64,000 bases of DNA from Selenomonas sp. AB3002 (GTDB taxonomy: Bacteria > Bacillota > Negativicutes > Selenomonadales > Selenomonadaceae), in assembly GCF_000702545.1 (NCBI RefSeq), contig NZ_JNIO01000008.1:1116001-1180000 (forward strand). Reading direction: 5' to 3'. The notes beneath the pieces are model-generated. The model did not search any database and had not been told where the DNA came from. It saw only the letters and a program-made list of their open reading frames with translations. Positions 13,613 through 15,757 of this stretch are shown here, piece by piece. Position 1 is the stretch's first letter. The number at the start of each line of letters is the position of its first letter. The translations under genes and the position numbers were made by a program.

Positions 13613-14206
13613 ATGATAAGGACAACACAAGACCTGCTTCTGGAATTGTCAGACTATGGGACACCGCAAACCAGAATTCAACGCATGGTGAAAAATGGTT
13701 CTTTGATAAAAATACGCAGGGGATTATACGAGACTGACCCCAATGTACCTGCATATCTTTTAGCGGGGGTTATCTACGGCCCGTCCTACATCTCCTTTTC
13801 CTATGCCCTTTCCCGCTATGGCCTTATCCCGGAGCGGGTAGAGACATGCACCTCTGCCACCTTTTGCAAAAATAGAAGCAAGCTGTTTCAAACGTCCCTG
13901 GGCAATTTCTCATACCGGGACGTTCCAAAAGAGGCATACCCTCACAAGGTGCACTGGAAGCAAGAAGGTGCATATAGCTATCTTATAGCCTCCCCTGAAA
14001 AGGCTCTTTGCGATATGCTTTACATAAAGCCTCCTGCCAGAAGCCTTGGGGCACTAAAAGAAATGTTGTTTGCGGATTTACGCCTTGATGAGGAGACATT
14101 TGCCAGCTTGCAGCAAGAGAAACTGCTGAGCCTGACGAAGCTATATCATTCGCAAAATGTAAAGCTGCTGGCCCGACTGGTGGAGAAGGGAGTGGCCATA
14201 AGATGA
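13613..14206 (+). CDS. abiEi: AbiEi-family antitoxin (type IV toxin-antitoxin)
   Basis: 197 aa from ATG 13613, with GGAGGAAATACT just upstream; the in-frame codons before it lie in the operator. The N-terminal winged helix (TTQDLLLELSDYGTPQTRI to about residue 45, ending IRRGLYETDP) and the middle region AYLLAGVIYGPSYISFSYAL are typical of AbiEi-like transcriptional regulator/antitoxins. It represses the operon and neutralises the AbiEii nucleotidyltransferase toxin without direct binding in known systems. Here it is intact and overlaps the toxin gene start by 4 nt, while the toxin is broken. Confidence 0.88.
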   Translation: MIRTTQDLLLELSDYGTPQTRIQRMVKNGSLIKIRRGLYETDPNVPAYLLAGVIYGPSYISFSYALSRYGLIPERVETCTSATFCKNRSKLFQTSLGNFSYRDVPKEAYPHKVHWKQEGAYSYLIASPEKALCDMLYIKPPARSLGALKEMLFADLRLDEETFASLQQEKLLSLTKLYHSQNVKLLARLVEKGVAIR

Positions 14207-14762
14207 CCATTATTCAGGATATGCTGGAGAAGTACGATTGCCGGAATGCCACGGATTACCGCAATGCACTGAAAGAAATCATACAAGAAGTGGCTCTGTG
14301 CGGCATGAGCCATAGCGGTTTTTTCAAATCGGTGCTTTCTATGGAGGTACGGCACTGCGTATTTTCCATGGCTTGCAACGTTTTTCGGAGGATATGGACT
14401 TTTCCCTATTGTCGCCCAACCCGGAATTTGATTTGGAAAATTACCTTTCCGGCATGAGGCAGGAATTGGCCTCTGTGGGGTTACAAATGACAGTGGAACG
14501 CAAGCCAAAAACAAAGATCAGCCCCATTCAGTCAGCCTTCATCAAAGGGGGCACCTGCATACAAATCATTAAGATTACCGGCAATGCAGCCGATACCAAG
14601 GGCCTGCCCAAGGATGAAGTTTTGAAAATCAAGGTGGAGGTAGATACTGAGCCGCCAGCAGGGGCTGTTTACGAAACGAAATATGCCCTGCACCCCGTTC
14701 CCTTTGTCGTCCGTCTTTACGACAAGCCGTCCTTGTTCGCAGGCAAAACTCATGCGGTATAG
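14203..14762 (+). pseudogene. abiEii: AbiEii-family nucleotidyltransferase toxin, frameshifted and truncated
   Basis: The gene begins MTIIQDMLEKYDCRN at 14203. Near 14320 the frame is lost, and the conserved nucleotidyltransferase motif continues in another frame as GAFYGGTALRIFHGLQRFSE, DMDFSLL. Restoring one A in the AAA run at about 14318-14320 would join the two frames (F-K-I-G-A-F-Y-G-G-T). The second frame then stops after LYDKPSLFAGKTHAV, where normal AbiEii proteins continue for roughly 100 more residues. Two independent lesions make an active toxin very unlikely. Confidence 0.85.
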
Positions 14763-14783
14763 TAAACAATTATAATCAAACTA

Positions 14784-14812
14784 TTCAAAAATATTAAAAA
14801 CAATGCTATAAT
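14784..14812 (+). promoter_or_regulatory. Promoter of the 14.8-kb structured RNA
   Basis: TTCAAA (14784-14789) and a perfect TATAAT (14807-14812) with 17 bp between them, directly after the truncated abiEii. Confidence 0.5.
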
Positions 14813-14818
14813 AGATGT

Positions 14819-15130
14819 GACGAACCTACGAGGACTGAACTTTAGAAAGGTTGAGCCGAGAAAAGAGCCTCGTTCTCTAGCGGAATGACGGAGACATCAT
14901 CTTTCGGCTCGTAAAAATGTCCAAAGTTGGCGCAGGGTATCTCGTCCAGCGGCAGAGCCGCCTATTTGAAATAAGCTAACGACCTCAAAAAGTATTCCCA
15001 AATAGCGAATAGCCTATGGGATAGAGGGCGTAGTGCTACGTCCATCTGTAGTAGCTATTGTGATGACCGCTTGCTTGGTTAGGGCTTGCCCTTACTCGGC
15101 TTGTTGAGAACAATCAGTGAGCAGTAAAGT
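14819..15130 (+). ncRNA. Unclassified structured RNA, about 310 nt
   Basis: No convincing reading frame exists here on either strand, while stems are frequent: AACCT (14823-14827) with AGGTT (14848-14852); GAGCCGA (14853-14859) with TCGGCTC (14904-14910), enclosing further pairing; GCGGC-AGA-GCCGC (14949-14961); and a 7-8 bp hairpin GGGCGTAG / CTACGTCC (15026-15043). A TATAAT promoter lies just before it. I compared it from memory with tmRNA, RNase P, 6S, group I and II introns, IscB/TnpB guide RNAs and T-boxes and recognised none. The 3' end is not marked by a clear terminator, so the end is approximate. Confidence 0.5.
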
Positions 15131-15394
15131 TTATTAAAAATTTTAACATTATTTGTTAGGTTTGGTTATAAACATAGCATAGCCCAAAGCATGGGACTGG
15201 GAACCCTTTGGTGCGACATTGCCCTCTATGTTGCCACCGTTGCGATTTCCTGGAATCTTTTTTTGAATGCCAAGCGGCTGCTCTGGACAAATATCAAAAA
15301 ACTTGTAAGCTGCTTTGTAATACTTTCTCCACCGGTGCGTATGTATAGACAGAAAACAACAAACAAAGTCAACCACCGAAGGGAGTAGATGAAA

Positions 15395-15757
15395 ATGAAG
15401 AACGCAATGAACAACAAGAAGCTGAATGATTTTGAACTGGACTTTGTATCCGGTGGGACTCTTACCGAAGTCAATCAGCTGGCAGATGCTTTCGCCAAGA
15501 AGGGCGGCATCTTCGGAGAAGTCGTAGCCGAGATCCACAGCGCTTTGAGCGACAAGAGCGGCGTGGCCGGACCGGTCAACATCCTGCTGCGGGAAGCTGT
15601 AGGCAAAGGCTTGAGCCAGCTTGGCATCTCCCATGACCTGAGCGTCGGCGTACTTGGAACCGGCTTCATGTCTAAGGACAACAAGTATTCTTACAATGGC
15701 AAGAGCATCTCACATGCAGATGTCCTCAAGATGATTGACGCTGCAAAAGTTGCCTAA
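15395..15757 (+). CDS. Double-glycine-leader peptide (bacteriocin-like precursor)
   Basis: 120 aa from ATG 15395 (GGGAG 9 nt upstream; an ATG at 15389 is too close to it). The leader KKLNDFELDFVSGG is a classical double-glycine signal cut by peptidase-containing ABC exporters (C39). The following 100 or so residues are alanine/glycine-rich and amphipathic, and the length is large for a class II bacteriocin, so a RiPP-like or secreted effector peptide is possible. No C39 transporter, immunity protein or modification enzyme is nearby; export would rely on a distant locus. It ends before a strong terminator. A preceding 230 bp without genes may hold its promoter. Confidence 0.7.
   Translation: MKNAMNNKKLNDFELDFVSGGTLTEVNQLADAFAKKGGIFGEVVAEIHSALSDKSGVAGPVNILLREAVGKGLSQLGISHDLSVGVLGTGFMSKDNKYSYNGKSISHADVLKMIDAAKVA

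Follow-up and report, generated by a model that had tools for sequence, protein, structure and literature searches.

A gene-less miniature IS607-type element carrying a structured RNA module in Selenomonas sp. AB3002

Introduction

What lies beside the broken abiEii gene of Selenomonas sp. AB3002? The window analysed here (the whole stretch of DNA, 64,000 nucleotides) contains next to this gene a segment that a preliminary description, made from the sequence alone, placed at 14784-15130 and took to be a structured RNA. The segment is part of a miniature, gene-less IS607-type element that is bounded by AT dinucleotides. It is real, but its limits have been revised: the start at 14784 lies 25 nt inside the element, and the end at 15130 stops 50 nt early. 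The features of the locus are listed below with the evidence for each.

14203-14760, + strand: truncated abiEii, interrupted by the element (corresponding to Pfam AbiEii positions 31-148 of 238; Pfam and comparison with the sister genome)
14759-15180, + strand: whole element including both AT core dinucleotides (422 bp; 420-bp unit), with ends common to the copies and with empty sites aligned for two other copies
14759-14800, + strand: left end, an AT-rich imperfect terminal inverted repeat (ATAGT...) that overlaps the promoter (alignment with the reverse complement of the right end; listing of left ends)
14784-14812, + strand: promoter TTCAAA-N17-TATAAT with TG extension (promoter scan)
14820-14990, + strand: structured RNA module without an Rfam match, helices A-F extending to 14961 and a linker after them (model R1, 21 places in 11 of 380 class genomes; covariation)
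14838-14928, + strand: pseudoknot helix D, 14838-14843 pairing with 14923-14928 (double changes in L025; 58 of 66 cells over 11 rows)
14992-15180, + strand: by alignment, right end of an IS607 tnpB element with the last tnpB codons, guide-RNA (reRNA/omegaRNA) region and terminal repeat (five tnpB-linked right ends; covariation; tnpB overlap)
15181-15227, no strand assigned: 47 nt outside the element, before homology to the sister genome resumes (comparison with the sister genome)

Results

The element has a promoter but no transposase gene. The 422-bp unit at 14759-15180 starts with ATAGTAAAC and ends with AAACATAGCAT. Its longest stop-free stretch on either strand is 46 codons, which leaves no transposase gene and agrees with the earlier observation of about 310 nt without a usable frame on both strands. 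The promoter TTCAAA-N17-TATAAT, also noted earlier, was recovered at 14784-14812 as an extended -10 promoter with a score of 10 out of 12 and the TG extension present. The scan found 4 promoter-like sites in 651 bases, compared to a shuffle mean of 1.0. By eye, other copies, like the left ends of full IS607 copies, have a similar promoter-like site in the corresponding position.

Copies of the element are found within the family and have inserted at different sites, as their flanks differ. The same genome has three matches, since besides the window copy there is one on C7 that matches at 91% and, on C2, a partial match at the end of a full IS607. A search of related genomes for copies and insertion boundaries had been proposed in the preliminary description; it gave some similarity to the element in 20 of the 189 genomes of the family, in many cases limited to the right end, and the left boundary was set at the abiEii break. 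The exact module pattern occurs in 15 stretches of the named genome collection, belonging to Selenomonas ruminantium, a Selenomonas sp., a Selenomonadaceae bin, and a bin titled Veillonellaceae. The plasmid, phage, and viral collections contained no match to the element.

Two of the loci are incomplete. Locus L016 (G165:C71, 1204-1276) is a remnant with the left end, promoter, and module start only, and it lies just upstream of a gene that by eye resembles family 1 glycosidases. At L010 (G153:C68, 1701-1785), 84 nt that show no relationship to the right end come after the module, and the contig stops there. This tail had no match beyond that same locus, and an ORF suspected after the module proved to be only 6 codons long.

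Empty sites have a single AT where filled sites have AT at both ends. This was seen for L005 and L025, each against three genomes, in alignments made from the loci and not from the search queries, which were slightly off (one base short, 1331, or three bases long, 669). The searches covered six of nine first flank pairs (L005, L006, L023, L007, L008, and L025) and three of four second pairs (L002, L004, and L032, with the window copy left out). Matches ran well across the junction for L005, L006, and L025, and only L005 and L025 were aligned further. For L023 and L032 the junction was crossed with only about ten bases of left flank, and the flank-pair searches gave no empty-site match for L007, L008, L002, and L004. 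Of the 21 recognized left ends, which include five full copies, all but one (L034) have a T in front of the AT core; the 21 were counted after removal of three spurious lines (one each for L002, L010, and L016), and the search pattern missed L007 and L012. Deviant left ends are found in L007, which reads GT for AT, and L060, which reads ATAAT for ATAGT.

The left edge of the element coincides with the break in abiEii. In the sister genome (G168, locus L108) the gene is uninterrupted and is 97-98% identical as far as window position 14760. The homology stops there, within the left AT core of the element, which bears out the earlier suggestion of an inserted unit starting at the abiEii truncation. 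Further on, the window has the element plus 47 nt in place of 500 bp of sister-genome sequence, and homology is back at 15228. Judged from this comparison, the left side of the window copy fits a canonical insertion and the right side is rearranged, so that the event as a whole was more than a simple insertion. A nitroreductase source for the 47 nt (15181-15227) was an idea formed by eye and is not claimed; the frame at 15191-15385 has no Pfam match. The secreted-peptide gene that had been described downstream of the RNA is present, but nothing was seen that ties it to the RNA. It belongs to the older neighbourhood, since in the sister genome it is found downstream of the uninterrupted abiEii. 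A small protein gene at window 15389-15757 has by eye a leader of the double-glycine type, is found in the sister genome too, and has no Pfam match.

The 3' half of the element, 14992-15180, corresponds by sequence comparison to an IS607 tnpB element's right end, including the guide-RNA region. It aligns with five tnpB-linked right ends. The matches sit at the ends of tnpA-tnpB elements, and in full copies the region overlaps the 3' end of tnpB, an overlap that is typical of TnpB guide RNAs. Four of the tnpB-linked rows (L032, L034, L038, and L048) have tnpA beside them, and the fifth row is L028. The alignment contained 13 of 20 right ends, five tnpB-linked and eight from miniatures. Its three helices comprise 19 pairs, and 98.4% of 247 cells are paired, compared to 35-48% in slid versions. 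Double changes occur in 4 pairs, a number reached by 5 of 500 shuffles, and the covariation score was reached by none of 500. One of the five measures was adverse, with 8 further pair types compared to 9.5 in shuffles, lower than in all shuffles. RAGATH-18 had no match in the window or in three full-length loci, and because of its absence from those loci the region is assigned as reRNA by position, homology, and covariation only. The preliminary description could identify no class, and a match to a known RNA family would have spoken against its proposal. Such a relationship was found for the 3' half alone, through homology to tnpB ends and not through Rfam; the 3' half can thus be classified as an IS607 tnpB right end, while the 5' part of about 165 nt stays unclassified.

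The right ends of the miniatures differ in their relationship to full copies. The loop of helix 1 is common to all eight miniatures and is unlike the loop of the five tnpB-linked ends. Beyond this loop, five of the eight right ends have a full copy, and not another miniature, as their closest sequence. This is clearest for L012 (94% to L028) and L005 (95% to L003 and L011) and is also clear for L007, while L008 and L025 are nearer to a full copy by one point only. L001, L002, and L004 have right ends that resemble one another more closely than they resemble any full copy. The common helix-1 loop, together with the nearness of five right ends to full copies, suggests that the miniatures had one origin and that the right end has been repeatedly refreshed. 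Exact antisense pairing between the element and full IS607 extends to at most 13 nt, in the end repeat.

The 5' half is a structured RNA module, and the support for its structure comes from comparison. No Rfam family matched the window at gathering scores, and a search of 14700-15300 at E 10 gave nothing credible. The folding energy is no better than that of shuffled sequences (z of -0.12 on the + strand and -1.14 on the - strand), so the case for structure is a comparative one. The segment had been called packed with stems; by energy the stems are no more than expected by chance, and it is comparison that backs the structure. Helices A, B, C, E, and F and a pseudoknot, D, make up the proposed fold, with 35 pairs in total, and 329 of 340 cells are paired over 11 sequences (29-50% with slid partners). 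Double-sided changes are found in 12 of the 35 pairs versus 1-3 with slid partners, and in 5 pairs versus 0-1 when three rows of the L025 group are removed; these counts come from an alignment of 11 rows, near-identical and truncated copies left out, that was fitted to the structure by hand, which biases covariation in its favour. Helix D reads AACTTT/AAAGTT in the window and TGCCTT/TAGGCA in L025, with three of its six pairs double-changed and kept and one broken. Over the 11 rows 58 of its 66 cells are paired and 8 are broken. Helix F has no covariation at all, and RNAalifold alone gives partly different pairing in the B/C region. The description as a structured RNA without an Rfam match holds, and the 5' part of about 165 nt has a pseudoknot supported by covariation.

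The module is restricted in its distribution. Model R1 was built from nine sequences, out of 21 places later found. Under stricter filters that lose weak matches, it found 21 places among 380 class genomes, and the 11 genomes concerned all belong to the same family as the window; among 398 phylum genomes it found only the window's own genome, G146, and a place in G553. The G553 match, the sole one outside the family, is inside a long reading frame and was taken as chance. None of the five full IS607 left ends inspected contains the module. Apart from a HEARO match in L058, the other Rfam matches at the loci of relatives are all below gathering scores and lie off the module.

Helper proteins are encoded in the same genome, which has one IS607 tnpA and one tnpB, neither with internal stops. 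In full-length relatives TnpA has a Resolvase domain, and TnpB has OrfB_IS605 and Cas12f1-like_TNB domains (Pfam). An IS200/IS605 element was the first idea, and it was dropped because TnpA proved to be a serine recombinase. TnpA with at least 70% identity is found in 15 of 189 family genomes, including five of the 11 with the module versus ten of 178 others (one-sided Fisher 0.00055); none was seen in six of the 11 module genomes. This association is only indicative, as the genomes are related and three of the five matches are fragments (G149, 165; G155, 127; and G148, 74 of 200 residues). The TnpB of L032 (4411-5676, - strand) has by eye the motifs GIDIG and DVNGA, IVIGKN where the second catalytic glutamate might stand, and a TEESYTSG stretch. 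It is perhaps an example of the alternative-glutamate arrangement described in PMC10711439.

Discussion

The best explanation, to which we give a probability of roughly 0.6, is that the element is a non-autonomous IS607-type miniature transposon, mobilised in trans by TnpA, whose RNA acts as a stand-alone guide for TnpB. The element retains a promoter-bearing left end, as well as the right end of a tnpA-tnpB element, and the RNA module of about 165 nt occupies the place of tnpA and most of tnpB. The IS607 TnpA serine recombinase of its own genome very probably moves it in trans. According to PMC10711439, recombination of IS607 elements takes place at dinucleotides that match ("short dinucleotide motifs", "typically ... 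matching dinucleotide motifs"), a wording that leaves room for cores other than GG, and the reRNA of IS607 TnpB runs past the right end. By analogy with that extension, there is an even chance that the promoter yields a single RNA in which the module and the reRNA scaffold are followed by a guide of about 20 nt from the right flank; after excision TnpB would use this RNA to cut the empty site, which would bring the element back. The module might be, as a guess, a 5' domain that stabilises, processes, or adapts the RNA. Should TnpB be guided in trans by this RNA, an element that has no genes could spread through another element's homing, and the module would be a new RNA domain joined to an OMEGA guide RNA. 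No miniature IS607 element with its own reRNA was found in the titles and abstract openings among the literature matches listed. A bolder version, which we regard as doubtful, is that there is a guide-only transposon lineage that exploits IS607 TnpA for movement and TnpB for retention, both in trans, with a new pseudoknotted RNA domain that is possibly interchangeable between the guides of TnpB and IscB.

Alternatively, the element could be a plain decaying deletion derivative, an inert MITE with leftover RNA structures that is moved in trans only through its intact ends. We consider this unlikely. Covariation in both the module and the right end argues against it, as does the retention of the promoter-like site across copies, while the ordinary folding energy and the G165 remnant, with its left end and module start only, speak for it. 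In addition, the module is missing from the left ends of the five full IS607 copies, so it is not a leftover of those elements. Far less probable still is an ORF-less IStron, with the module acting as a group I intron and removing the insertion from transcripts by splicing. An IS607-type IStron, SrISt1, has been reported in Selenomonas ruminantium and ORF-less IStrons exist, but the ends here are AT...AGC-AT and those reported for that group are GG/CGG (PMC4227781). The order of the helices is by eye unlike P3/P7, and 14700-15300 has no Intron_gpI match at E 10. The same model does match 8 of 61 family genomes searched at E 0.001, four of them above the cut-off, and gives none in G000 or G146; the other module genomes were outside this set except for G186, which matched at another place. 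Group I intron copies are found in family genomes G038 and G039, with 5 and 12 matches.

HEARO is the omegaRNA of IscB/IsrB. It is improbable, less so than an IStron, that an IS607 element captured the module as an independent OMEGA RNA domain of the HEARO/IscB lineage. The idea comes from L058 (G077:C26, 1501-1757), where the module is followed by a HEARO match of 33.2 bits (E 2.3e-5, 358-base search) and the 5' domain is unlike that of 11 other G077 HEAROs compared, which share the core. However, this score is below the HEARO gathering score of 83, the window has no HEARO match at E 10, and the contig of L058 ends there; a HEARO inserted into a miniature explains the arrangement equally well. 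L058 is thus possibly a chimeric guide RNA or a nested insertion. HEARO RNAs are frequent in G077, which has 11 matches, and in genus g11.

Several known systems can be compared with the element. It has in common with IS607 (TnpA serine recombinase plus TnpB) a right end with the 3' codons of tnpB and a guide-RNA region, insertion bounded by dinucleotides, and an AT-rich left end with a promoter. In contrast to IS607 it has no genes, its core is AT rather than GG, an extra RNA module is present between the ends, and the left end is only loosely similar in sequence. It resembles the TnpB reRNA/omegaRNA of the RAGATH-18 type (PMC11061315) in its position at the right end and its conserved helices, and differs in its own promoter, its 5' module, and the absence of a RAGATH-18 match. 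By subtraction from the 10,258 of 16,029 given in PMC11061315, 5,771 RAGATH-18 RNAs are not adjacent to IS607 TnpB. IStrons, including the ORF-less BcISt1 (PMC4227781), similarly combine an RNA with IS607 ends and have ORF-less forms, but here the ends are different and there is no group I intron match. The likeness to HEARO is that the L058 module is upstream of a HEARO-like RNA, although the window has no HEARO match. MITEs and PATEs are non-autonomous derivatives of IS elements that are short and gene-less, occur in several copies, and depend on a transposase acting in trans. The element described here is likewise short, gene-less, and multicopy and would likewise need a transposase in trans, and it differs from them in containing a covarying RNA.
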